Shown in pieces: positions 11,634-31,400 of a stretch of 64,000 nucleotides of DNA. Position 1 is the first letter of the stretch. Each line of letters opens with the position of its first letter. A model generated the notes under the pieces. It saw only the letters and a list, made by a program, of their open reading frames with translations. It did not search any database and was not told the origin of the DNA. A program made the translations under genes and the position numbers. The DNA comes from Actinacidiphila bryophytorum (GTDB taxonomy: Bacteria > Actinomycetota > Actinomycetes > Streptomycetales > Streptomycetaceae): NCBI RefSeq assembly GCF_016916835.1, contig NZ_JAFFIX010000009.1:186001-250000 (forward strand), written 5' to 3'.

Positions 11634-13619
<1,986 letters not shown>

Positions 13620-13832
13620 AGCTCTGCCCTCTCCTCAAACCCGTATCTTGACGTTCACGACCCGAATCCCGTCAGTGCTTGCCCTGCGCCTGCTCGGAGC
13701 TACGGTACCGGGCGTTCCGCGCCGATCCGTGCCCCGGACGGCCGCCGATACCCGACCGGTATGTGGACGGGCGCTGCGACGCGCGTGACGTTCGTCTCCT
13801 CGGCAGCCCCCCGGGCCGTGCTGCTGCACCGG

Positions 13833-15293
13833 TCACTTGTCGAGCACCGCCTGCATGACGCTCTTGGCGATCGGCGCCGCGAGGCCGCCGCCGCTGATGT
13901 CGTCGCGGTTGGCCGCACCGTCCTCGACGACCACGGCGACCGCGACCGGCGAGCCCTGGTCGGTCATCGCGTAGGAGACGAACCAGGCGTAGGGCGCCTT
14001 GTCGTTGTTGACGCCGTGCTGGGCGGTACCGGTCTTGCCGCCGACCTTGACCCCGGGGATCTTGGCGTTCTTGCCGGTGCCGTCGTTGACGACGGTCTCC
14101 ATCATCGACTGCAGCTTCTGCGCGTTCTCCGGCGACAGCGGCTTGCTCAGCTCGGTCGGGTCGGTCTGCGAGATGGTGCTCAGGTTGGGCGCCACCAGCT
14201 TCGCGACCTCGTAGGGCTTCATCAGCACCCCGTTGTTGGCGATGGCCGAGGCGACCATGGCCATCTGCAGCGGGGTCGCCGCGGTGTCGAACTGGCCGAT
14301 CGAGGACTGGGCGACCTGGTCGGGGCTCATCTTGGTGTCGAAGTTGCTGGCGTCGGCGCGGACCGGGACGAGCTGCTCCTTGTTGAAGCCGAACTTCTCG
14401 GCCTCGTCCACCATGCCCTGGAGCCCGATGTCGGCGCCGAGCTTGCCGAAGACGGTGTTGCAGGACTGCCGCAGCGCATCGCGCAGCGTGGCGTCCTTGC
14501 ACTTGATGCTGCCCTCGTTCTTCAGCGGCACGGAGGTGCCGGGCAGGACGTACGGGTCGGGCGAGGTCGTCTTCGCGTTGACGTCGGTGACCTTGCCGGA
14601 CTCCAGCGCCGCCGCCGCCGTGACCAGCTTGAACGTCGAGCCGGGCGGGTAGGTCTGGCGCAGCGCCCGGTTCAGCGACGGGTCGTCGGGGTCGTTCTTC
14701 TTGTCGAGCGCGATCCAGTTCTTCTCGTCGGTGCCGGAGTAGCCCGCGATGCCCGAGGGGTCGTACGACGGGGTGCTCGCCATCGCGAGGATCGCGCCGG
14801 TGCGCGGGTCGAGCGCGACGACCGCGCCCTTCTTGTTGCCGAGCCCGTCGAACGCGGCCTTCTGCGCCTTGGCGTTCAGCGTGGTCACCACGTTGCCGCC
14901 CTGCCGCTGCTTGCCGGTGAGCAGGTCGATGGTGCGGTTGAAGAACAGCCGGTCGTCGTTGCCGGTGAGGAACTTGTCCTCGACGCCCTCCAGCATCGTC
15001 GTGCCGTACGCCTGTGAGGCGTGGCCCGTCACCGGCGCCCACATCGGGCCGTCGGTGTAGGTGCGCTTGTACTTGAAGTCGCTGCCGTTGGTCTCGGTGT
15101 GACCTGTGATCGCCTTGTCGCCGACGATGATGTTGCCGCGCGGCTGTGCGTACTGGTTGATCGCGACCCGCCGGTTGTGCGGGTCGTTCTGCAGCTGGTC
15201 GGCCTGCACGAACTGCACGTAGTTGACGCGTATCAGCAGGGCGAGGACGAGGAGACCGCAGAAGACCGCGACCCTTCGTAGCGGCTTGTTCAC
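13833..15293 (-). CDS. pbpA: Class B penicillin-binding protein (transpeptidase) PbpA
   Basis: A 486-residue peptidoglycan transpeptidase. N-terminal membrane anchor (VAVFCGLLVLALLIRVNY), dimerisation domain beginning PRGNI, then the penicillin-fold domain with all three motifs: Ser219-x-x-Lys222 (STFK), Ser277-Cys-Asn279 (SCN) and Lys420-Thr-Gly (KTG). It works outside the membrane as partner of the SEDS polymerase encoded just upstream. Its GTG start overlaps the rodA stop by 4 bp (GTGA), so the pair is translationally coupled, which suits a 1:1 polymerase-transpeptidase complex. It is shorter than PBP2-type proteins of proteobacteria but normal for actinobacterial PbpA. Confidence 0.95.
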   Translation of the reverse strand: MNKPLRRVAVFCGLLVLALLIRVNYVQFVQADQLQNDPHNRRVAINQYAQPRGNIIVGDKAITGHTETNGSDFKYKRTYTDGPMWAPVTGHASQAYGTTMLEGVEDKFLTGNDDRLFFNRTIDLLTGKQRQGGNVVTTLNAKAQKAAFDGLGNKKGAVVALDPRTGAILAMASTPSYDPSGIAGYSGTDEKNWIALDKKNDPDDPSLNRALRQTYPPGSTFKLVTAAAALESGKVTDVNAKTTSPDPYVLPGTSVPLKNEGSIKCKDATLRDALRQSCNTVFGKLGADIGLQGMVDEAEKFGFNKEQLVPVRADASNFDTKMSPDQVAQSSIGQFDTAATPLQMAMVASAIANNGVLMKPYEVAKLVAPNLSTISQTDPTELSKPLSPENAQKLQSMMETVVNDGTGKNAKIPGVKVGGKTGTAQHGVNNDKAPYAWFVSYAMTDQGSPVAVAVVVEDGAANRDDISGGGLAAPIAKSVMQAVLDK

Positions 15294-16672
15294 TGGTTAC
15301 GCACCACCTGGGTCGCTTCGGCGTCGGGGGAGGGGGCGGGGCTGGGGGCCGGCCGCCGTGCGGTGTCGCTGATCCGCAGCAGGATCGCGACCAGCGCCCA
15401 GTTGGCGATCACCGAGGAACCGCCCTGGGCCATGAAGGGCATCGTCATACCGGTCAGCGGGATGAGGCCGGTCACACCGCCGGCCACCACGAAGACCTGC
15501 AGCGCGAAACCGCCGGACAGGCCGATCGCCAGCAGCTTCCCGAACGGGTCGCGGGCCGCGAGCGCGGTGCGTATGCCGCGCTCGATGAGCAGGCCGTACA
15601 GCAGCAGCACCGCCATCAGCCCTGCCAGGCCCAGCTCCTCGCCGACGGTGGCCAGGATGTAGTCGCTCTTGGGGGCGATGCCGTGGATCAGCCGCGAGTA
15701 CCCCTGGCCGAGCCCGGAGCCGAACAGCCCGCCGGAACCGAAGGCGTAGCGGGCCTGGGCCGTCTCCGTCACGGCGCCGTTCTCCAGCGCCAGCGGGTGC
15801 AGCCAGTCCTGCACACGGGTCTTCACGTGCGGCTCGGACGAGGCGACCGCGACCGCACCGGCCGAGCTGAGCAGCAGGCCGAAGACGATCCAGCTGGTGC
15901 GCTCGGTCGCCACGTAGAGCATGACCACGAACAGGCCGAAGAACAGCAGCGAGGTGCCCAGGTCGGTCTCGAAGACCAGGATCAGCAGGCTGACCGCCCA
16001 GATCACCAGGATCGGGCCGAGGTCGCGGCCGCGCGGCAGGTACAGGCCCATCACCCGGCGGCTGGCCAGTGCGAGCGCGTCCCGCTTGACCATCAGGTAG
16101 CCGGCGAAGAAGACCGTGATGATGATCTTCGCGAACTCCCCCGGCTGGAGCGAGCCGATGCCCGGCAGCGTGACCCAGATCCGGGCGCCGTAGACCGGCG
16201 GGAAGAACACCGGCAGCACCAGCAGGAACAGCGCGAGCACCATCGAGATGTAGGTGTAGCGCTGCAGGATGCGGTGGTCCTTGACGAAGACCAGTACCAG
16301 CACGAAGAGCACGACGCCGAAGGTGGACCACATCAGCTGCTTGGGCGCCATCGCGGCACCCAGGCTCGGCTCCTGGTCCAGCCGCCAGATCAGCACCAGG
16401 CCGAGGCCGTTGAGCAGCGTGGCGATCGGCAGCATCAGCGGGTCGGCATAGGGGGCGAACTTGCGCACCAGCAGGTGGGTCACCGTCGCCAGCAGGCCGA
16501 GCCCCACCCCGTATCCGAGCAGGCCGGCGGGGACCGAGCCGTTCTTGGCCAGGCCGACGTTCGCGTAGGCGAAGACCGGGATGGCGACGGCGAAGACCAG
16601 CAGGGCCAGTTCGGTGTTGCGGCGGTTGGGAGCGCCGATCGAGGTGATGGTGGTGGTGTTGCTGGCGCTCAT
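15290..16672 (-). CDS. rodA: SEDS-family peptidoglycan glycosyltransferase (FtsW/RodA type)
   Basis: A 460-residue polytopic membrane protein with about ten to twelve helices. SEDS signatures: IWVTLPGIGSLQPGEFAKI (the conserved GxxxQPSE-like loop), DLGTSLLFFGLF, and the C-terminal GLIPLTGMTMPFMAQGGSS, which includes the family GGSS motif. It polymerises glycan strands from lipid II. Position between pstP and pbpA is the conserved actinobacterial arrangement, where this member is usually called RodA; FtsW is an equally acceptable family name. ATG 16672 lies 22 bp after the pstP stop. Confidence 0.93.
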   Translation of the reverse strand: MSASNTTTITSIGAPNRRNTELALLVFAVAIPVFAYANVGLAKNGSVPAGLLGYGVGLGLLATVTHLLVRKFAPYADPLMLPIATLLNGLGLVLIWRLDQEPSLGAAMAPKQLMWSTFGVVLFVLVLVFVKDHRILQRYTYISMVLALFLLVLPVFFPPVYGARIWVTLPGIGSLQPGEFAKIIITVFFAGYLMVKRDALALASRRVMGLYLPRGRDLGPILVIWAVSLLILVFETDLGTSLLFFGLFVVMLYVATERTSWIVFGLLLSSAGAVAVASSEPHVKTRVQDWLHPLALENGAVTETAQARYAFGSGGLFGSGLGQGYSRLIHGIAPKSDYILATVGEELGLAGLMAVLLLYGLLIERGIRTALAARDPFGKLLAIGLSGGFALQVFVVAGGVTGLIPLTGMTMPFMAQGGSSVIANWALVAILLRISDTARRPAPSPAPSPDAEATQVVRNQ

Positions 16673-20220: not shown

Positions 20221-20304
20221 GCGCGGGTGGCGGAATAGGCAGACGCGCTGGATTCAGGTTCCAGTGCCCGAAAGGGCGTGGGGGTTCAACTCCCCCCTCG
20301 CGCA
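20221..20304 (+). tRNA. tRNA-Leu (anticodon CAG)
   Basis: The 84-nt gene folds as a class II tRNA. The acceptor GCGCGGG pairs with CTCGCGC, the anticodon arm CTGGA-TTCAGGT-TCCAG gives CAG (reads CUG), and the long variable arm TGCCCGAAAGGGCGT is typical of Leu. The T arm has loop TTCAACT, and the discriminator is A. CCA is not encoded. CUG is the main Leu codon in this DNA, so the gene is probably a major isoacceptor. It directly precedes an accessory-looking biosynthetic operon. Confidence 0.95.
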
Positions 20305-20320
20305 CAAGAGCAGTACCAGA

Positions 20321-20367
20321 GAAGGTGCCCCCCTCCGGTGACGGAAGTCATCGAGGGGGGCACCTTC
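20321..20367 (+). terminator. Terminator after tRNA-Leu
   Basis: Perfect 14-bp outer stem (20321-20334 with 20354-20367), extended inward by CGGTGAC/GTCATCG around a GGAA tetraloop. It starts 17 bp after the tRNA and insulates it from the aminotransferase operon. Confidence 0.85.
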
Positions 20368-20474
20368 CGTTGTGCCGGGGGTCGGCATGCGGTGCGGTGG
20401 CCAAGCTTCCACCAAGCGGGGCGACCTACAGTGGCCCACCACTTCGTGGCCCACCAGGACAGGAAAAATACCCC

Positions 20475-21866
20475 ATGATGGATAATGCGCACACTCTGGA
20501 CGATGTCGCCCGGCGCCACCTCTGGCTGCACTTCACGGACCATTCGGAATTCGCGGACTCCCCCGTTCCGATGATCGTGCGGGGGGAAGGCGCGTACATT
20601 TTCGACCAGAACGGCCGCAGGTACCTGGACGGGATATCGGGGCTCCTTGTCACACAACTGGGGCACGGCCGCACCGAGTTAGTGAGTGCCGCCGCGAAGC
20701 AGGCACAGGAGCTGGCCTTCTTTCCGTTGTGGTCGTTCGCGCACCCGACGGCCGTCGAGCTGGCCGGGAGAATCGCGGACGCGGCGCCGGGGGATCTGAA
20801 CCGGGTGTTCTTCACCAGCGGTGGAAGCGAGGCCGTCGAATCGGCCTGGAAGCTCGCCAAGCTCTATTTCAAGCTGACGGGCAAGCCCTCGAAGACGAAG
20901 GTGATCAGCCGTGCCGGCGCCTATCACGGCACCACCCACGGCGCCCTGTCGATCACCGGGATCCCCAGTTACCGGCAGCCGTACGAGCCGCTGGTGCCGG
21001 GTGTGGTCAGGGCGCCGAACACCGACTTCTACCGTTCGCAGCAGGTCACGGGGGACCTCGCCGTCTCCGGCGACGAGGAGGCCTTCGGGCGCTGGGCCGC
21101 GGAGGAGGTGGGGCGGCTGATCGAGCGGGAGGGTGCGGACACCGTTGCCGCCGTCTTCGTCGAACCCGTGCAGAACTCCGGCGGCTGCCTCACCCCGCCG
21201 CCGGGGTATTTCGCGCGGCTGCGGGAGATATGCGACACCTACGACGTACTGCTCGTCTCGGACGAGGTCATCTGCGGATACGGGCGGCTCGGCACGATGT
21301 TCGGCTGCCAGAAGTTCGGATACCTCCCCGACATCATCACCTCGGCCAAGGGACTCACCTCCGGCTACTCGCCCATCGGCGCGATGATCGCCTCCGACCG
21401 GCTGTTCGAGCCCTTTGCGAGCGACGGCACGATCTTCACCCACGGATACACCTTCGGCGGGCACCCGGTGTCGGCCGCCGTCGCGCTGGCGAATCTCGAC
21501 ATCTTCGAGCGCGAGGGAATTCTCGAACACGTGACGGAGAACGAGCCGGTCTTCCGCAGCATTCTGGAACGGCTTTACGACCTTCCCATCGTGGGCGACG
21601 TGCGGGGCGCCGGGTACTTCTTCGGCGTCGAACTCGTCAAGGACAAGGACAAGCGCACGGTTTTCACCGCGGAGGAGTGCGACACGGTACTCGGCGGGCG
21701 TTTCTCGCAGGCGCTGCTCGACGCGGGCCTGTATTGCAGGACCGCGGGCGACCAGGGCGACCGGGTGGTGCAGCTGGCCCCTCCGCTGATCTGCGGCGAG
21801 GAGCACTTCGAGGAGATCGAGGCAGCACTGCGGACGGTCCTGTCCGAAGCCTGGAAGATGCTCTAG
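20475..21866 (+). CDS. Class III PLP-dependent aminotransferase
   Basis: A 463-residue fold-type I aminotransferase. Typical omega-aminotransferase motifs: FTSGGSEAVESAWKLAK, RAGAYHGTTHGALS, LLVSDEVICGYGRLG (PLP-pyridine Asp), and the PLP lysine K292 in TSAKGLTSGYSPIG. Class III enzymes interconvert aldehydes or ketones and amines. First gene of a four-gene operon with a reductase-terminated NRPS-like enzyme that would release an aldehyde, so amination of that aldehyde is the natural inference. Codon 69 is TTA (20679-20681), rare in Streptomyces and read by bldA tRNA. ATG 20475 follows AGGAAA. Start-proximal codons are less GC-biased than neighbouring core genes. Confidence 0.9.
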   Translation: MMDNAHTLDDVARRHLWLHFTDHSEFADSPVPMIVRGEGAYIFDQNGRRYLDGISGLLVTQLGHGRTELVSAAAKQAQELAFFPLWSFAHPTAVELAGRIADAAPGDLNRVFFTSGGSEAVESAWKLAKLYFKLTGKPSKTKVISRAGAYHGTTHGALSITGIPSYRQPYEPLVPGVVRAPNTDFYRSQQVTGDLAVSGDEEAFGRWAAEEVGRLIEREGADTVAAVFVEPVQNSGGCLTPPPGYFARLREICDTYDVLLVSDEVICGYGRLGTMFGCQKFGYLPDIITSAKGLTSGYSPIGAMIASDRLFEPFASDGTIFTHGYTFGGHPVSAAVALANLDIFEREGILEHVTENEPVFRSILERLYDLPIVGDVRGAGYFFGVELVKDKDKRTVFTAEECDTVLGGRFSQALLDAGLYCRTAGDQGDRVVQLAPPLICGEEHFEEIEAALRTVLSEAWKML

Positions 21867-21868
21867 GG

Positions 21869-22939
21869 GTGGCGGCGACGAGTGCGCGGCCCGGCTGGGA
21901 GCTGAGCGGCACGCTCCCCGGGCGGGTGGCACCGACGTGCCTGTTCGACTCGGCCGGCTGGCTGGGGCGGTGGGCCACAGCGCAGATCGAGACCTTCGAC
22001 ACCGTCGACTACGTGGTGGAGCGCGCCGCCGGGGACCTGCCCCGGCAGGTGCTGCCGCTCTACACGGTCAAGTTCTCGCCCTTCTGGCAGGGCTACGAAC
22101 TGCAGACCGGGGTGGCACCGCTGTGCCCGGGGCCGATCGTCTTCGCCGGGTCCGTGTACTCGATGTACACCAAGCGCGGCCATGTGCCGGACGACCTGGT
22201 GGACGGCGCCTTCCAGGAGGCGGCAGGGCGGATCGCCCGGCAGGAGGCCAGCCTGCTGGTCGTCCCGAACCTGACGGACGAGGGCGTCGCCGACTGGGTG
22301 CGGAGGGCGGGCGAACCGGCCGGGCGGGTGCTGCTGGACCTGACCTACCACTGCGAACTCGCGGGCGGCTTCCAGGAGTACCTGCACCGCCTGGACACGA
22401 AAATCCGCAGGGACGTGGACCGGCGGCGGCGCCGGGCGCACGAGCGCGGGCTGCGCGTACGGCTGCTGGCACCGGACGAGGCCGAGCCGTACCTGGAGCG
22501 GGCGCTGCAGCTCACCGTCGGCACCTCCGACCACCACAGCTGGCCCGCGCTGTACGACCTGCCGACGCTGCGGCTGCTGCTGTCGGTGCCCGGCTCGGTC
22601 ACCGCGCTGGCCGAAGCGGACGGCGAGGTGCTGGGGGTCTTCTTCGGGTTCCGGCACGGCGACGAGGTCGTCTTCCTCACCGGCGGCGTCCAGTACGACA
22701 GCCTCGGCAGGTACAGCACCTACGTCGCCCTGATGTACCACTGCATCGAGTGGGCGCACCAGAACGGGGTGCGCCGCATCGAGTGGGGCCGCGACAACTA
22801 CCGCTTCAAGGAGCGGCACGGCCTGACCCCCGTGCAGCTGTGGGGCCTGGTCTACGCGCCCGAGGGCGACACGCGGACGGCGGGGAAGGCCGCGCACATG
22901 CACCGCTTCCTGTCCGACTACATGGAATCGTCCAGATGA
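21869..22939 (+). CDS. GNAT-fold protein of the CelD/FemAB-like type
   Basis: A 356-residue soluble protein. The C-terminal half carries the pattern of the CelD/BcsL/FemAB-like acetyltransferase group: GEVLGVFFGFRHGDEVVFLTGG, RYSTYVALMYHCIEWA, then IEWGRDNYRFKERHG. Members transfer acyl groups from CoA or, in Fem-type enzymes, amino acids from aminoacyl-tRNA; which applies is not decided by sequence. GTG 21869 lies 2 bp after the aminotransferase stop, so the genes are coupled. No TTA codon was seen. A likely job is N-acylation or aminoacylation of the pathway's amine. Confidence 0.7.
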   Translation: MAATSARPGWELSGTLPGRVAPTCLFDSAGWLGRWATAQIETFDTVDYVVERAAGDLPRQVLPLYTVKFSPFWQGYELQTGVAPLCPGPIVFAGSVYSMYTKRGHVPDDLVDGAFQEAAGRIARQEASLLVVPNLTDEGVADWVRRAGEPAGRVLLDLTYHCELAGGFQEYLHRLDTKIRRDVDRRRRRAHERGLRVRLLAPDEAEPYLERALQLTVGTSDHHSWPALYDLPTLRLLLSVPGSVTALAEADGEVLGVFFGFRHGDEVVFLTGGVQYDSLGRYSTYVALMYHCIEWAHQNGVRRIEWGRDNYRFKERHGLTPVQLWGLVYAPEGDTRTAGKAAHMHRFLSDYMESSR

Positions 22940-24135
22940 CGCGGGCCGCCCGGTTACGGGTCGGCCTGCTCCTGGCGGGCATCGTCAGTGCCAACGCCTC
23001 CTACACCGTCCTGATCCCCTTCGTTCCCGAACTGGAGCGCAGGGTCCACATGGACGGGCTCGGCCTGGCGCTCACCTTCGCGCTGTTCGCGGCGGCCAAG
23101 GCGCTCTTCCAGCCGGTCGGCGGGGCGTGGAGCGACCGGTGGCAGGCGCGTTCCGTGGCCTTCACCGGGCTCGGCGTGGTCGCGCTGTCGGTGACCTGGC
23201 TGGCCTTCTCCACCTCGCAGTGGGAGCTGCTGGGCGCACGCGTCGCCTGGGGGGCGGGCGAGGGGATCCTGACGCCTGCGCTCTACCACGGGGCGACGCT
23301 GCTGTGCGGTGAGCACCGCATCCCCGACCACCGGATGATGGGCTGGTTCGGGACGGCGTCGGTCACCGGTTTCCTGCTGGGCCCGGTCGTCGCCGGGTCG
23401 GGTTCCGCGCTCGGCCTCACCACGCTGTGCGTCCTGGGGGCCGCGGCGACCGTCGCCACCGCCTTCGGCGTCTTCCGCGCGATCCCGCGGGAGGCACGCG
23501 CGGGCGCCGTGGAAGGGGAGGCGGCGCCGGACCCTGCGGCGGGCGGCCGTGCGCCGCGGCACTGGATGATGCTGGTGCTGGTCTTCGGCGTGCTGGACCT
23601 GGTGGCCGGGCTCACCTCCTCGGCGCTGGAACCCACCATCCCGCTCTACATCGCCGCGGCGGGGGAGTCCACCGTGGTCATCTCCTCGGTCTTCACCGTC
23701 GGGATGGCCACCTTCGCGCTGGTCTCCACCGTCCTCGGCCGTGTCGCCGAGAAGTGGTCGGTGGAGACGCTGGTCACCGTCGGCCTGGTGACGGGGACGG
23801 TGGGCACCGCGGGGATCTCGCTGAGCAACCACCAGATCCCGCTGATGTGCTGCTTCGTCCTCATCATGACCGGCCAGCCCAGCGTGTACATCGCCGCCCG
23901 GAAGGGAGTCGCCGCGCTGCGGTCGGCGGGCGGGCGGCTGGGGATCTCCTTCGGGGTCTTCGGCGCCATATCGGATCTCGGCGAGGTCGTCGGCCCGCTG
24001 GCGGGGTCCGGGCTCTACGCGCTCGGCGGCCGCCAGGGCTTCATCTGGCTGGCGATCATCGGCATGACCCTTTTGACCGTTGTCCTAGGAATTTACCGAA
24101 GGTGGTCGGCGGTGGCCCGGCCGGTCACCGCCTGA
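22936..24135 (+). CDS. MFS exporter
   Basis: A 399-residue 12-helix major facilitator. TM1 reads LLLAGIVSANASYTVLIPFV, and the A-type loop between TM2 and TM3 is GGAWSDRWQARSV. GFLLGPVVAG in TM5 resembles an antiporter motif. The start overlaps the preceding stop (ATGA). Codon 7 is TTA (22954-22956), so translation should depend strongly on bldA tRNA. In this operon it most plausibly exports the product of the A-T-R/aminotransferase pathway. Confidence 0.88.
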   Translation: MTRAARLRVGLLLAGIVSANASYTVLIPFVPELERRVHMDGLGLALTFALFAAAKALFQPVGGAWSDRWQARSVAFTGLGVVALSVTWLAFSTSQWELLGARVAWGAGEGILTPALYHGATLLCGEHRIPDHRMMGWFGTASVTGFLLGPVVAGSGSALGLTTLCVLGAAATVATAFGVFRAIPREARAGAVEGEAAPDPAAGGRAPRHWMMLVLVFGVLDLVAGLTSSALEPTIPLYIAAAGESTVVISSVFTVGMATFALVSTVLGRVAEKWSVETLVTVGLVTGTVGTAGISLSNHQIPLMCCFVLIMTGQPSVYIAARKGVAALRSAGGRLGISFGVFGAISDLGEVVGPLAGSGLYALGGRQGFIWLAIIGMTLLTVVLGIYRRWSAVARPVTA

Positions 24136-24155
24136 ATCCAGAACGGGGTTCGAGA

Positions 24156-27100
24156 ATGCCGTCAGGACAGCAGGAACCAGGACTGCAGGAAGGGGACCGC
24201 CCCTCCTGTTTCAGGGGAAGGTCCGTTCCCTATCCGGTCGACAGTACGGTGCTGCAGCTCTTCGAGAGGCAGGCGGCCGGGGCTCCCGAGCGCCCCGCGC
24301 TGACCTTCGGCGGGGAGACGCTGACGTACGGCGAGCTGAACGGGCGGGCCAACCGGCTCGCCGAGCGATTACGCACCCTCGGCGTCCGGCGCGGCGACTT
24401 CGTACCGCTGGTCATGGGGAACTGCCTGGAACTGCCCTTGTCGATGATCGCCCTCATGAAGCTCGCGGCCCCCTTCGTCCCCGTGGACGACACCTGGCCC
24501 AGGGAGCGCTTCGAGGAGGTGATCGCCGCGCTGGACCCCCCGGTGGTCCTCACGGCGGGGAAGGTGGACCCGCCGGCGGAAGACGCCAGGTCCGTCCTGG
24601 TGGACGCGGCCTCCCTCGACGAACTGCACTCCAACCACCACGGACCCGCCGCCGGCCTCTCCGACCTCGCCTACGGCTTCTTCACCTCCGGCTCGACCGG
24701 TGTTCCCAAATGCGCTCTCAATATCCACCGCGGGCTGCTCAACCGCTTTGTCCACATGACGCGCCGCTTCGGCGGCGGCTCCGACGTCGTCCTGCAGAAC
24801 AGCAGGCACGTCTTCGACTCCTCCCTGTGGCAGCTGCTGTGGCCGCTGACCAACGGCAGCCGGGTGGTGATACCGGAGCGCTCGGGAATCCTGGACCTCA
24901 CCGCGACGGTGGAGGTGATCCGCCGCCACCAGGTGACGATGACCGACTTCGTGCCGTCCATCTTCAACGCGCTGGTGGACCTGCTGAGCGCCCGGCCCTC
25001 CTACGTCAGGGACCTGGCGTCGCTGCGCCGGCTGCTCGTCGGCGGCGAGGAGATCAGCGTGCCGGCCGTGCACGCCTTCCGCGCCATGCTGCCCGCGGTC
25101 GGCATCACCAACACCTACGGGCCGACCGAGGCCGCGATCGGCTCGGTCTTCCACGACGTCGGCGACGACGACGTCGAGACGATCCCGATCGGCCTCCCCA
25201 TCGACAACACCTACGCCGTCGTCGTGGACGACGACATGGCCCCGCTCGGCCCGACCGCCGTCGGCGAGATCTGCATCGGCGGCGACTGCCTGGGCCTGGG
25301 CTACCTCGACGACCCCGCGAAGACCGACGCGGCCTTCGTGCCCAACCCCTTCGCCGAGATCCCCGGTTCCCGCCTCTACCGCACCGGCGACCTGGGCTTC
25401 CTGCGCACCGACGGGCTCATCCACTTCGTGGGCCGCCGCGACCAGCAGGTCAAGATCGGCGGCGTCCGTATCGAACTGTCCGAGGTGGAAGGGGCGCTGG
25501 CCGCGCACCCCGGGGTGCGCGAGGCGCGGGTGATCGCCCTGGACACCGCGGGCGTCAAGGTGCTGGGCGCCTTCGTCACCGCCCGGTCGGTGCTCACCGC
25601 CGAGGAACTGCGGGCGCACGCCGAGACGGCCCTGGCCCCGGGGCTGCGGCCCAAGCGGTACTTCCTCGTCGACGCTTTCCCGCTGACGCCCAACGGCAAG
25701 CTCGACCGCAAGGCGCTCGCGGGACTGGCCGCACCGGCGAAGAAGCCGGCAGGGGCGGTGGCGCTCACCCCGGCGGAGCGCGCCGTCGCCGACATCTGGC
25801 TCAGCCTGCTGCCCTGCGACGAGGTGACCGCCGACGACGACTTCTTCGCCTGCGGCGGCGACTCGCTGGCCGCGCTGCGGCTGACCCTGGCCCTCGAAGT
25901 CGACTCCGGGGTCAAGCTCTCGGTCAAGGACATCGTCAACGCCCCGACGCTGCGCGGCCAGGCGGCCCTGGTGTCCGGGGCGGGCACTGCGACGACCGCG
26001 CCCGCCGCCCCGAGCCGCGACCTTTTCGCCCCCGACCTGGACCTGCCCGCCGACGTCCGCGTCAGCGGTGCAGTGCCGCGCGGCCCCGTCGAGAACGTCC
26101 TGCTGACCGGCGCCACCGGATTCATCGGCGCCCACCTGCTGCACGAACTGCTCGCGCGCACCTCGGCGACCGTCCACTGCCTGGTGCGCGGCACGGACCG
26201 GGCCTCGGCGTACGAGCGCCTCGTCGCGAACCTCAGGGAGCAGCGGCTGTGGGCCGAGGCCCACGCGGACCGCGTCGTCGTGGTCAACGGCGACCTCGCC
26301 GAGCCGCGCTTCGGGCTGTCGGACGCGGACTACGACGCGCTCGCCGACCGGGTCGACACCATCGTCCACAACGGCGCCCTGGTGAACCTGCTGCTCTCCT
26401 ACCAGGCCCACCGCGCGGTCAACGTGCTGAGCACCCGGCAGATCATCAGCTTCGCCGCCACCGGTCCCGTCAAGCGGCTGCACTACGTCTCGACGCTCGG
26501 GGTGTGCGTGCCGCAGCCGGACGCCGCGCCCGCCGCGTCCCCGGTCCGCGAGGCGTCCGTGCTGGGCACTCCACCGCCCGTGCGCGGCTACGACCAGTCC
26601 AAGTGGGTCGCCGAGCACCTGCTCGACGCGGCCGCAGAACGCGGACTGCCCACGGCCGTCTACCGGCTGGGCGAGGTGATGCCGCACTCGGTGCACGGCG
26701 TGCCCAGCCGGCGCGGGCTCGCCGACGGCCTGGTGAAGGCCTGCATCCGCACCGGTCTGGCCTTCAAGAGCCCGATCAGGATGGACTACACGCCGGTCGA
26801 CTACGTCAGCGGCTTCGTCGTGGCGTCCGTCCTGCGCTACGAGACCGGCTGCTTCCACGTCCTGCAGCCGCGTGCGGTGGACTTCGACGAGCTGCTGGCC
26901 GCCTTCGCCGGGCACTTCCCCCTGCAATGGGTGGACTACCGGGACTTCTGGTGCGCCCTCGACGACCTGCACGACCTGCACGACCTGCACGACGTGCACG
27001 GCCGGCACGAGGACGGCTCGGACCCGGACGGGCTGGTGCGGCTGCTGTCCGCCCTGCCCAGGCCCGACGCGGCCTTCGACCCCGCCGACCTGGCCTCGCT

Positions 27101-27227
27101 CTTCTCCGACAGCACGGCCCTGTTCGCCAGGGCGCGCACCCAGCGGTTCCTGGACCGGGAGCGGCTGGCCTGGCCCGAGGTGGGGCGGGAGGTGTTCGAG
27201 CGCTACGCGGCCTACTACCGGGCGTGA
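24156..27227 (+). CDS. NRPS-like A-T-R enzyme (adenylation, carrier protein, thioester reductase)
   Basis: A 1023-residue three-domain enzyme. The adenylation domain (about 25-515) has YGFFTSGSTGVPKC, FDSSLW, TNTYGPTEAAIG, YRTGDLG and the C-terminal PNGKLDRKAL lysine. The carrier protein shows GGDSLAAL with phosphopantetheine Ser570. The reductase (about 640-1023) has GATGFIGAHLL for NADPH binding and Y812/K816 in YDQSKW. There is no condensation domain, so one acid is activated, loaded and released as aldehyde or alcohol, as in Lys2 and carboxylate reductases. My by-eye binding-pocket reading is D-S-W-D-L-G-T-I-G, which I do not recognise. Codon 72 is TTA (24369-24371). Near the C-terminus is a 4x DLH/DVH repeat (26964-26999). 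Confidence 0.92.
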   Translation: MPSGQQEPGLQEGDRPSCFRGRSVPYPVDSTVLQLFERQAAGAPERPALTFGGETLTYGELNGRANRLAERLRTLGVRRGDFVPLVMGNCLELPLSMIALMKLAAPFVPVDDTWPRERFEEVIAALDPPVVLTAGKVDPPAEDARSVLVDAASLDELHSNHHGPAAGLSDLAYGFFTSGSTGVPKCALNIHRGLLNRFVHMTRRFGGGSDVVLQNSRHVFDSSLWQLLWPLTNGSRVVIPERSGILDLTATVEVIRRHQVTMTDFVPSIFNALVDLLSARPSYVRDLASLRRLLVGGEEISVPAVHAFRAMLPAVGITNTYGPTEAAIGSVFHDVGDDDVETIPIGLPIDNTYAVVVDDDMAPLGPTAVGEICIGGDCLGLGYLDDPAKTDAAFVPNPFAEIPGSRLYRTGDLGFLRTDGLIHFVGRRDQQVKIGGVRIELSEVEGALAAHPGVREARVIALDTAGVKVLGAFVTARSVLTAEELRAHAETALAPGLRPKRYFLVDAFPLTPNGKLDRKALAGLAAPAKKPAGAVALTPAERAVADIWLSLLPCDEVTADDDFFACGGDSLAALRLTLALEVDSGVKLSVKDIVNAPTLRGQAALVSGAGTATTAPAAPSRDLFAPDLDLPADVRVSGAVPRGPVENVLLTGATGFIGAHLLHELLARTSATVHCLVRGTDRASAYERLVANLREQRLWAEAHADRVVVVNGDLAEPRFGLSDADYDALADRVDTIVHNGALVNLLLSYQAHRAVNVLSTRQIISFAATGPVKRLHYVSTLGVCVPQPDAAPAASPVREASVLGTPPPVRGYDQSKWVAEHLLDAAAERGLPTAVYRLGEVMPHSVHGVPSRRGLADGLVKACIRTGLAFKSPIRMDYTPVDYVSGFVVASVLRYETGCFHVLQPRAVDFDELLAAFAGHFPLQWVDYRDFWCALDDLHDLHDLHDVHGRHEDGSDPDGLVRLLSALPRPDAAFDPADLASLFSDSTALFARARTQRFLDRERLAWPEVGREVFERYAAYYRA
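26964..26999 (+). repeat. 9-bp coding repeat (DLH x3, DVH) in the A-T-R gene
   Basis: Four tandem copies of GACCTGCAC, the last with one change (GACGTGCAC). They encode Asp-Leu-His repeats followed by GRHEDG in the reductase domain. The repeat is in-frame and slippage-prone, and gives a local His/Asp-rich patch. Confidence 0.85.
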
Positions 27228-27364: not shown

Positions 27365-27940
27365 ATGGGTGTCAGCCTCTCCAAGGGCGGCAATGTCTCA
27401 CTGACGAAGGAGGCCCCCGGACTGACGGCGGTCACCGTCGGCCTGGGCTGGGACGTCCGCACGACCACGGGTACGGACTTCGACCTCGACGCGAGCGCGC
27501 TGCTGCTCGACGCGGCGGGCAAGGTCGTCTCGGACAAGCACTTCGTGTTCTTCAACAACCTCAAGAGCCCCGACGGCTCGGTCGAGCACACCGGTGACAA
27601 CCTCACCGGTGAGGGCGAGGGCGACGACGAGGCCATCAAGGTGAATCTCGCCGGGGTGCCCGCCGAGGTGGACAAGATCGTCTTCCCGGTCTCGATCTAC
27701 GACGGCGAGACCCGCCAGCAGAGCTTCGGCCAGGTGCGCAACGCGTTCATCCGGGTCGTCAACCAGGCGGGCGGCACCGAGATCGCCCGCTACGACCTCA
27801 CCGAGGACGCCTCGACGGAGACCGCCATGGTCTTCGGCGAGCTGTACCGCAACGGGGCCGAGTGGAAGTTCCGCGCGGTCGGCCAGGGGTATGCCTCGGG
27901 CCTGCGCGGCATCGCCCAGGACTTCGGCGTCAACCTCTGA
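27365..27940 (+). CDS. TerD-family stress protein
   Basis: A 191-residue cytosolic protein of the TerD/TerZ/CABP family. Calcium-binding signature [13 protein letters not shown], the [21 protein letters not shown] loop split over two strands, and the duplicated acidic site near [10 protein letters not shown]. Such proteins are linked to tellurite and stress resistance and, in Streptomyces, to normal development. ATG 27365 has GGGAG upstream. It is the first conserved gene after the tRNA-associated operon, transcribed separately and convergent with marR. Confidence 0.93.
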
Positions 27941-28484: not shown

Positions 28485-31400
28485 TCAGCTGGGCAGCGGA
28501 AGTTCGAACCACACCACCTTGCCGACCGCCTTGCGGCTGGTCCCCCAGCGCCGCGACATGTGCGACACCAGCGCCAGGCCGCGCCCGCGTACGTCGTCGG
28601 CCTCGGCGCGCTGCAGCTGCGGCAGGTTGTGGTTGTCGTCGCTGACCTCGACCAGCAGCTTGCCGACCCGCATCAGCCGCAGCTCCACCTCGTAGGACGC
28701 CGCCCGGATCGCATTGGTGACGAGCTCGCTGACCAGCAGCTCCGTGGTGTCGCTCAGCCGGTCCAGGCCCCAGGCGGCGAGCTGCTGCCGGGTCAGGTCG
28801 CGGGCGCGGGCCACCTCGCTGTCGTCCACCCGCAGCCGCCACTGGGCCACGTCCTGCGGCGCGATGCCGTCGAAGCGCGCGACCAGCAGCGCCACGTCGT
28901 CCCGCCGGTCCTCGGAGTGCACCCTGCCGAGGATCTGCCCGCACACGTCCTCCGGCGTCTGCTGCGGCTCGATCACATGGGCGCACAGCGCCGCCAGCCC
29001 GGCGTCTATGCCCTGGCCGCGCACCTCCACCAGGCCGTCGGTGCACAGCACCAGCCAACTGCCGTCCGGCGCGGGGATCTCCACCGTCTCGAAGGGCACC
29101 CCGCCCACGCCGATCGGTGCGCCGCCGGGAATCTGCAGCAGCTCGCCGCGCCCGTCGTGCCCGGCCAGCACCGGCGGGATGTGGCCCGCGTTGGCGAGGG
29201 CCAGGGTGCGGTGGATCGGGTCGTAGACCGCGTAGACGCACGTGGCGAGGTGGTCGGTGCCCAGCCGCTGGGCCAGGTTGTCCAGATGCCGCAGCAGCTG
29301 GGCGGGCGGCAGGTCGAGCGCGGCCATGGTGATGACCGACGTGCGGAACTGGCCCATCACGGCCGCCGCCTGCAGACCGTGGCCCATCACGTCGCCGACG
29401 ATCAGCGCCACCCGGCCGCCGGGCAGCTGGATCGCGTCGAACCAGTCGCCGCCGACCTGCGCCTGCCGGTCCCCCGGCATGTAGTGGTGCGCGATCTGCA
29501 CACCCGGGATACGCGGCGGCCGGGTCGGCATCATCGAGCGCTGCAGCGTGGCGGCGGCGCGGGACTCCAGGCGGTGCAGCCGGGCGTTGTCCAGGTGGAC
29601 GGCGCCACGGGCGGCGACCTCGGCCGCGGTGGCGGCGTCCCTGGCGTCGAAGGGCCGGCGGCCAGGGCCGCGCAGGAAGCAGACCCGGCCGAGCACCGTG
29701 CCGCGGGCGGTGAGCGGCGCGAGGATCAGCGAATGTCCGGCCAGCAGCCCTCCGATCGCGGGGACGCCCAGGTCCGCGGCGATGTCGGGGCCCAGCGCCG
29801 GATCGACGACCGGCAGCAGGACCGGGTCGCCGAGCCGCGGCATCGTGTCCTGCGCGGGCAGCGTGAGCAGTTCGCCCTCGGGCAGCGCGGTGCTCCAGCC
29901 CGCCCCGCGTCCCGTGCGGTCGGCGACCGCGACCCTGCGGACCAGCACCGTGTCGGCGGCCCTGTCGTCCTTGGGCGGCTCGGTGTCGGAGAAGAGCTGG
30001 TCCACGACGAGGACGGTGGCGAGGTCGGCGAACCGCGGCACCGTGACCGCGCACAGCTCGCGGGCGGTCGTGTGCAGGTCGAGGGTCGAGCCGACCACGG
30101 AGCCGGTCTCGCGCAGCAGCGACAGCTGCTCGTCCAGCGCGCTGCCGGGCAGGGGGCTGCGGGAGCCGTGGGCCGGCCGCCAGGGGGATCCGGGCGCTGC
30201 CGGCGCTGTTGTTCCCGAGGGGGCGGGTGGCCCCGGTGGTGCGGGCGGGGCGGCTGCCGGGTGCGGCGGCGGGAACGTGCCGACCGGACCTGCGGGACCT
30301 GCGGGACCTGCGGGACCTGCGGTGGGGAAGGGGACGGCGGTCAGGGCGGACGCACTGGAGCGGTCGCCACCACGGATAGCTGAACCAACGCCGGGAGTGA
30401 GGGATTCCGGTACGGGTCGCTCGGCGGGACGGGCGGCCGGGGCGGAAGCGGGTCCGGGGAACGCGGCGGGGTCCGGGCGGGGACCCGGCAGCAGTTCACG
30501 GCGGGCGGAGCGGTCGGCGCGGGCGGCCGCGGCGACCTGGGCGTAGTCCTGCGGGGTGACGGGCAGCCGGGCGCTGCCCTCGACCTCCAGCGCGGGGTGG
30601 CCGAGCGGGGCGATCTGCCGCACGATGCGGTCGAGGCGGCCCGGGCTGACCCCGGGCAGTATCGTGCCCAGCCGCGCGGTCAGCGCATGCCCCTGCGCGG
30701 GATCGGGCGCCGGGCACAGCACCGCGGCGATCGCGATGTCCTGGCGCTGCGGCCCTTCCGCGGTGTACGGCAGCAGCCGGCCGCCCACCGCGATCCGCAG
30801 GCCGCCGGTGCGCAGCGGCCGGGCGTTCGCCGCGATGGCCAGCAGGCTACGCCCGCCGGGCTCGGCGATCCGGTAGGTCCACCACAGCACGTCTTTGACG
30901 GTGCCGTCGCGGTCGGTCGCGGCCAGCGCGCCGGCCCAGGCCGAGGTGGTCAGGTCGTCGAGGACGTCCAGGGTGTCCCGGTGTGCGGTGCCGGACGCGG
31001 TGGGGGCCGCACCGGCGGCCGCCCGGGTGGCGGTCAGCAGGCCGGAGGCGCGGTGGCCGAACACATGCTCCCAGCGGTGGCCGAAAAGCTCCTCGGCGCC
31101 GCGGTTCCAGTACGAGATCCGGCCGTCCGGGTCGACGCACAGCACCGCGAGGCGGAGCAGTGCGGTCATGCCGCTGCCGTCGAGCACGGCGGCGCCGCTC
31201 CCCGGGGCGGCGGGGCTGCCGAAGGGCGCGGCGGCCAGGCCTGAGGCGGCGGCGCGCGCGCCCGGACCGGCGTCGTGGTCTCCGGCTGCGGGACCGCCGC
31301 CGGCAGGACCCCCGCCGGCAGGGCGGTTGTCCGTTCGGCCCGGGTCCGTCCGTACGGTGTCCGCGCCCCCGGTGCCTGCACGGCCACCCTCAGGGCGGCC

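Follow-up and report, generated by a model that had tools for sequence, protein, structure and literature searches.

A tRNA-Leu-adjacent operon of Actinacidiphila bryophytorum as a candidate condensation-free pathway to an aminoacyl amine

The operon described here lies in a 64,000-nucleotide stretch of the 8.05 Mb genome of Actinacidiphila bryophytorum (contig NZ_JAFFIX010000009.1, positions 186,001 to 250,000, assembly GCF_016916835.1), referred to below as the window. Its four genes (20475-27227, all four reading frames open) encode a class III aminotransferase, a protein with two GNAT domains, a transporter of the major facilitator superfamily (MFS), and a nonribosomal peptide synthetase (NRPS) composed of adenylation (A), thiolation (T), and reductase (R) domains, A-T-R for short, which has no condensation domain according to Pfam. 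With a probability of about 0.5, the operon makes an aminoacyl amine by the combined action of the A-T-R enzyme, the amine transaminase, a Fem-type transferase, and export by the MFS protein. In the most economical order of events, the A domain would activate an amino acid on A-T-R, the R domain would release it as an amino aldehyde, and the aminotransferase would convert the CHO group to CH2NH2 to yield a diamine. The Fem-type GNAT would then transfer an aminoacyl group from a charged tRNA onto an amine of this product, and the MFS protein would export the resulting aminoacyl amine. Alternatively, the Fem-type GNAT may aminoacylate the carrier-bound amino acid before its release, as proposed for livipeptin.

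The observations behind this reading are the domain content, motifs, conservation, rarity, TTA codons, and predicted fold of the operon and its products. Pfam domains, motifs, and gene junctions (in gene order, neighbours are separated by 2 nt, overlap by 4 nt, and are separated by 20 nt) confirm the first-pass annotation, which described tightly spaced aminotransferase, GNAT, MFS, and A-T-R genes beside tRNA-Leu; the roles and the condensation-free logic that it assigned to them are supported by the domain content. The entire operon is also present at the same place in Actinacidiphila cocklensis (locus L039). The ratio of nonsynonymous to synonymous substitution rates (dN/dS) between the two copies is 0.08–0.32, indicating that the four genes are under purifying selection.

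TTA codons mark bldA-dependent genes, which often belong to specialised metabolism. A simple purpose-made gene caller identified 54 genes in the window; three of them contain TTA codons, and all three belong to the operon (chance 1.6e-4). The codons are located in the genes of the aminotransferase (codon 69, position 20679), the MFS protein (codon 7, position 22954), and A-T-R (codon 72, position 24369). A. cocklensis retains TTA at the corresponding codons of the latter two genes and has TTG in the aminotransferase gene. The four genes probably constitute a small specialised-metabolite operon at a variable tRNA site under bldA control. Scans for promoter-like and terminator-like sequences found none, and such scans say little for this kind of organism.

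Table 1. Positions of the operon genes and flanking features in the window
Feature	Position	Strand	Basis or remark
tRNA-Leu(CAG)	20221..20305	+	left edge of the variable interval; not operon-specific
Class III aminotransferase, amine-transaminase type	20475..21866	+	PF00202; NF005102; nearest solved chain 9gh9
Double-GNAT protein, predicted Fem-type transferase	21869..22939	+	PF13480; model and fold matches; motif N310-Y-R-F313-K314
MFS transporter, likely exporter	22936..24135	+	PF07690 (MFS_1)
Condensation-free NRPS A-T-R: adenylation, thiolation, NAD(P)-dependent reductase	24156..27227	+	AMP-binding, PP-binding, and NAD_binding_4
TerD gene	27365..27940	+	PF02342; right neighbour of the variable interval, outside the pathway

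The GNAT-fold protein and its MFS partner

The AlphaFold2 model of the GNAT protein (predicted local distance difference test score, pLDDT, 85.0) has the double-GNAT fold of the FemX/Sba18/MprF type. Its best structural match is Sbb17 (Z 19.9, root-mean-square deviation 3.3, 274 aligned). The first 22 of the best 50 structural matches, which include several entries of the same few proteins, are of the Sbb17/Sba18, FemX, FemA, and MprF/PGS types with Z values of 16.0–19.9. The 23rd match has no assigned function, and further GNATs, some of them CoA-dependent, come next from Z 15.4 down. In Foldseek, the first nine matches are of the same aminoacyl-tRNA-dependent kind and the tenth is an acetyltransferase. 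The sequence identity to the solved Sba18/Sbb17 and FemX is 15–16%.

The protein was compared with its homologues in 14 sequences: 11 loci from a pattern scan of the genomes of 84,980 species, which covers close relatives only, together with G252, G953, and the window. Acyl-CoA-dependent GNATs have an acyl-CoA loop with the pattern [QR]xxGx[GA]. This pattern is absent from 12 of the 14 proteins, and in the other two it is a chance match outside the expected place. The motif N-Y-R-F-K (N-x-x-F-K) is kept in all 14. Its spacing equals that of Asn325, Phe328, and Lys329 of DhpH-C, which excerpts of PMC12945691 describe as important residues. From its predicted fold and motif, the most plausible assignment is an amide-forming enzyme of the Fem type that depends on aminoacyl-tRNA, although a shared fold is no proof of function. 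The protein is unlikely to be instead a conventional acyltransferase that draws on acyl-CoA or an acyl carrier as donor and forms an N-acyl amine. PF13480 is named as an acetyltransferase domain, and some acyl-CoA-dependent tandem GNATs match the model at Z 15.4 and below; however, the closest folds are tRNA-dependent, and the acyl-CoA loop is missing from its expected place in 14 of 14 sequences. The first-pass annotation had the protein acylate or aminoacylate the amine. An amide-forming role is supported, and fold and motif make a Fem-type aminoacyl-tRNA transferase likelier than an acyl-CoA enzyme.

In all 14 loci an MFS gene is the next gene downstream on the same strand. In the three Saccharothrix loci the MFS gene is larger, and in L040, the one scanned, an alpha/beta-hydrolase domain is fused to its product. 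Among the genes listed for the other 13 loci, this A-T-R and aminotransferase appear in A. cocklensis alone. The four-gene set, proposed earlier to act as a unit, is whole in A. cocklensis; elsewhere the GNAT and MFS genes keep together while their surroundings differ. A TTA codon is present in the GNAT or MFS gene of only two of 12 partner loci (L040 and L043, the GNAT gene in both), so the pair does not generally bear this mark.

The partner genes fall into distinct settings. The Saccharothrix loci contain methyltransferase, aldehyde-dehydrogenase-like, and class I lysyl-tRNA-synthetase (LysRS)-like genes (scanned in L040); the LysRS-like gene lies near the GNAT-MFS pair in L040 (4963-6486), L043, and L047. 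No other PF01921 match exceeds the cut-off in any of these three genomes, and among control genomes PF01921 has a match in 13 of 14, over the cut-off in nine. The LysRS-like protein may be a resistant target or may supply charged tRNA. The Microbispora loci (L044 scanned, L041 and L086 assigned by similarity) contain genes for an Asp/Arg hydroxylase, a further GNAT, two tryptophan-dioxygenase-like proteins, a class V aminotransferase, and a flavin adenine dinucleotide (FAD) monooxygenase, and L042 and L046 resemble them by start sequences. A kynurenine-like set stands beside the pair in L041 (5806-11887), L044 (14515-20679), and L086; it comprises the two dioxygenase-like genes, both short, the class V aminotransferase and FAD monooxygenase genes, and a cyclase-family gene (scanned in L044).

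In a further setting, Streptomyces sp. TP-A0356 (L045, scanned), L085, and the Actinophytocola loci L048 and L049 (by similarity) carry genes for an M20 peptidase, an amino-acid kinase, a semialdehyde dehydrogenase, a LysX-like protein, a split transketolase, and DegT. A LysW-like carrier was read in L045, L048, and L049. The arrangement beside the GNAT-MFS pair in L045 (2464-12347), L048, L049, and L085 can be summarised as a LysW-like carrier, LysX/Y/Z/K-like proteins, a split transketolase, and DegT, and may represent a compact route that turns a lysine-like amino acid into an aminoacyl derivative. Among the genes listed for these four loci, none was noticed to be NRPS-like, and the GNAT is therefore the likeliest amide-forming enzyme there.

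The differing surroundings allow a second explanation for the pair, slightly less probable than the acyltransferase: a portable self-resistance and export cassette, in which the GNAT inactivates a toxic amine and the MFS protein removes it, so that only A-T-R and the aminotransferase are biosynthetic. The constancy of the pair in 14 of 14 loci with differing other genes is consistent with such a cassette. However, the fold and motif of the GNAT are those of amide-forming aminoacyl-tRNA enzymes, and its likeliest role in the LysW/transketolase loci is to form the amide. A biosynthetic role for the pair leads to a broader proposal, which is tentative, with the odds somewhat against it. The Fem-type GNAT and the MFS protein would form a portable module, found in at least four gene settings, that joins a tRNA-borne amino acid to amine-bearing small molecules and exports them. 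In the operon the module would be combined with reductive release and transamination to give an aminoacylated diamine by a complete, peptide-like route that needs no condensation domain and no ribosome.

The A-T-R enzyme and the aminotransferase

The core motifs TSGSTG, YGPTE, YRTGD, NGKLD, GGDS, GATGFIG, and YDQSK are present in A-T-R. The ten-residue code of the adenylation domain, with positions mapped by eye from GrsA landmarks, is DSWDLGTIGK. The code is identical in the A-T-R proteins of A. cocklensis (87% identity), G038 (52%), and G021 (48%), and takes the form DSWD[IV]G[GA]IGK in G073, G065, G053, and a second G038 copy (each 43%); the 23 less similar NRPS proteins of the same alignment have other codes. 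We take the Asp at the fourth code position as a hint of a substrate with a basic side chain, and the A domain might activate an amino acid, perhaps one of this kind. An A-T-R match with an E value of 1e-160 or lower occurs in six of 121 sampled family genomes, including the window's own and that of A. cocklensis.

The relatives of A-T-R have neighbours of their own. The relative in G021 is accompanied by a sulfotransferase gene and an argininosuccinate-synthase-like gene, and that in G073 by a Cys/Met pyridoxal phosphate (PLP) enzyme gene and a diaminopimelate-epimerase-like gene. Aldo/keto-reductase-like genes near A-T-R relatives were labelled from the start sequence only. In G038, G1159, and G1164, A-T-R occurs with a multi-domain GNAT and a DegT aminotransferase (both scanned in G038), and with a further protein that is 28–33% alike to class III aminotransferases. 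In these loci (L051, L094, and L095), an A-T-R of related sequence belongs to a larger conserved set that also encodes radical-SAM, DegT, glycosyltransferase-like, and class III aminotransferase-like proteins, several of them labelled by start sequence. In L052 (6588-12668), L053 (8171-15045), and L054, relatives with the same code adjoin genes for a sulfotransferase (PF19798, from a scan of L052) and for aldo/keto-reductase-like proteins recognised by their start sequence. By analogy, these three sets could perhaps convert an amino acid to an amino alcohol, its O-sulfate, and an aziridine. Excerpts of PMC9570651 describe aziridine formation by sulfate elimination for azinomycin.

The aminotransferase of the operon scores 750.5 bits against NF005102 (curated cut-off 574), and its AKG motif with the PLP lysine (residue 292 region) aligns with that of 9gh9. 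This chain, the amine transaminase Sbv333-ATA from Streptomyces, is the nearest solved relative (686 bits over nearly the full length). The same genome encodes an aminotransferase paralogue with 66% identity; two genes near it have starts resembling a Lrp regulator and an aldehyde dehydrogenase. Pocket residue Phe61 of Sbv333-ATA is replaced by Leu in both operon copies and is Phe in the paralogue, while Trp89 is kept. The replacement suggests a changed substrate, but does not indicate which one. Sbv333-ATA itself is (S)-selective, and its donors include cadaverine and propylamine (excerpts of PMC12343752).

Least probable of the alternatives is an aminotransferase that provides the A-T-R substrate, or alters it or a side chain, instead of aminating the released aldehyde, leaving a peptide aldehyde or cyclic imine as the product: livipeptin, assembled by a condensation-free A-T-R and a tRNA enzyme, is proposed to end as an aldehyde (excerpts of PMC10548850), and the 66% paralogue lies near the presumed aldehyde dehydrogenase gene. 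Against this, the simplest reading of a reductase encoded next to an amine transaminase is conversion of an aldehyde to an amine, as in PtTamH, and the Phe61 replacement in the operon copies points to a changed substrate without specifying it.

The tRNA-Leu site

The tRNA-Leu gene is the sole tRNA detected in the window. Upstream of it, on the minus strand, are FhaA and PP2C phosphatase genes, and the genes at 11634-16672 presumably encode FtsW, PBP, and PknB, labels based on their start sequences. Downstream of the operon, TerD is followed by a SpoIIE-type gene on the minus strand.

The GNAT gene is present in two of 35 genomes of the genus, and in 2/391 genomes of the order, 3/394 of the class, and 1/396 of the phylum; the counts include the window's own genome, and the order, class, and phylum sets are overlapping samples from larger groups. 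The surroundings of tRNA-Leu were compared in 20 of the 34 genus relatives over about 14 kb each. All 20 keep the tRNA at 98.8–100% identity, and none has any of the four operon genes there. TerD is found downstream within the compared stretch in 18 of them and is not reached in L063 and L064. It directly follows the tRNA in nine relatives (L061, L062, L066, L069, L071, L072, L073, L076, and L080), one or two short genes intervene in five (L065, L068, L070, L074, and L079), and the remaining six (L063, L064, L067, L075, L077, and L078) carry larger, different cargo. The tRNA-Leu site varies recurrently among species of the genus, some of which carry different larger cargo there, whereas the region around it is conserved. 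The 3' end of the tRNA is shared by 22 of 22 sequences compared, and the conserved sequence stops there. Judged by eye, none of the 21 other sequences matches the window just past the tRNA. Some relatives share their own downstream sequence (L063 with L064, L075 with L077, and L061 partly with L062). In A. cocklensis, the operon lies between the tRNA and a gene for a 184-amino-acid protein and a PadR gene, both of which several relatives have at this place.

The non-core, variable-site status suggested by the first-pass annotation agrees with these counts. A core operon, present in all relatives at the locus, was checked for and is ruled out by the occurrence of the GNAT gene in 2/35 genus genomes and of the operon at the tRNA in 0/20 relatives. 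The tRNA-Leu is likewise ruled out as a member of the operon, because 20 of 20 relatives without the operon have it. As expected of a tRNA-borne island, the gene content directly 3' of the conserved tRNA varies among relatives, which upholds part of the earlier view of the tRNA as a classic insertion site. However, Pfam identified no integrase among the four genes between the tRNA and TerD, and no word of at least 12 nt is shared with the tRNA as an attachment repeat up to position 28500, so a classical island with both elements is rejected.

The synonymous divergence between the two operon copies is 0.31–0.41. Among 35 neighbouring genes the median is 0.204 and the highest value 0.332, and three of the four operon genes are more diverged than any of these. 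The raised divergence fits exchange at a variable site, possibly with two separate arrivals of the operon, although codon bias could contribute to the divergence.

The proposed pathway and known systems

Several points weigh against the proposed pathway. Every chemical step, the substrates, and the product are inferred from sequence comparison and a predicted model. The four-gene set is known from two species only, because GNAT homologues outside Actinacidiphila adjoin other genes. Since the GNAT-MFS pairs elsewhere stand among differing genes, they need not act on an A-T-R product. A-T-R relatives with the same code also adjoin other genes, and the code DSWDLGTIGK was not found in the open-licence literature searched. 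Neither phmmer nor a profile search gave a significant PDB sequence match for the GNAT protein, and its 20.9 bits against Pfam FemAB_like fall short of the cut-off of 27, so the tRNA-dependent reading rests on fold and motif.

If the pathway operates as proposed, four genes suffice for a complete route from an amino acid to an aminoacyl amine, which would be easy to move and reconstitute. An MFS gene adjoining a gene for a PF13480 double-GNAT that has N-Y-R-F-K would then serve as a signature for tRNA-dependent small-molecule clusters without NRPS condensation genes, such as the LysW/transketolase sets.

The closest parallel in logic is livipeptin of Streptomyces lividans (Sli0883-0885), for which excerpts of PMC10548850 describe a condensation-free A-T-R and a tRNA-utilising enzyme. 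Both systems combine such an A-T-R with an enzyme thought to form an amide from a charged tRNA. In livipeptin, the tRNA enzyme belongs to the leucyl/phenylalanyl transferase family, an N-acyltransferase is also present, and the proposed product is an aldehyde, whereas the window operon has a Fem-type GNAT, an amine transaminase, and an MFS protein. Pfam identified no member of the leucyl/phenylalanyl-transferase family among the four operon proteins, and PF13480 instead.

VlmA, DhpH-C, DhpK, PacB, BD-12 Orf11, and the solved Sba18/Sbb17 and FemX share with the operon protein the double-GNAT fold and the Lys in an N-x-x-F-K context. None of the GNAT-fold tRNA enzymes named in the excerpts of PMC12945691 is described there with A-T-R and an amine transaminase, and DhpH differs in being a two-domain protein whose C-terminal domain performs the transfer. 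Reductive release followed by transamination has a counterpart in PtTamA/PtTamH of tambjamine YP1 biosynthesis, in which a carrier-bound thioester becomes an aldehyde that is aminated by a class III transaminase (excerpts of PMC9594044). PtTamH combines in one protein a thioester reductase and a transaminase acting on aldehydes. Unlike in the operon, the substrate is fatty acyl, the transaminase and reductase are fused, and the excerpts name no Fem-type enzyme. Sbv333-ATA (PDB 9GH9), the closest solved relative of the aminotransferase, differs from it in having Phe61 where the operon enzyme has Leu. In agreement with the first-pass annotation, no pathway with this exact gene set was found in searches of a single open-licence library, from which most subscription papers are missing. 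The parts are of known kinds, and their combination varies the logic, exemplified by livipeptin, of an NRPS without condensation domain working with a tRNA-utilising enzyme.

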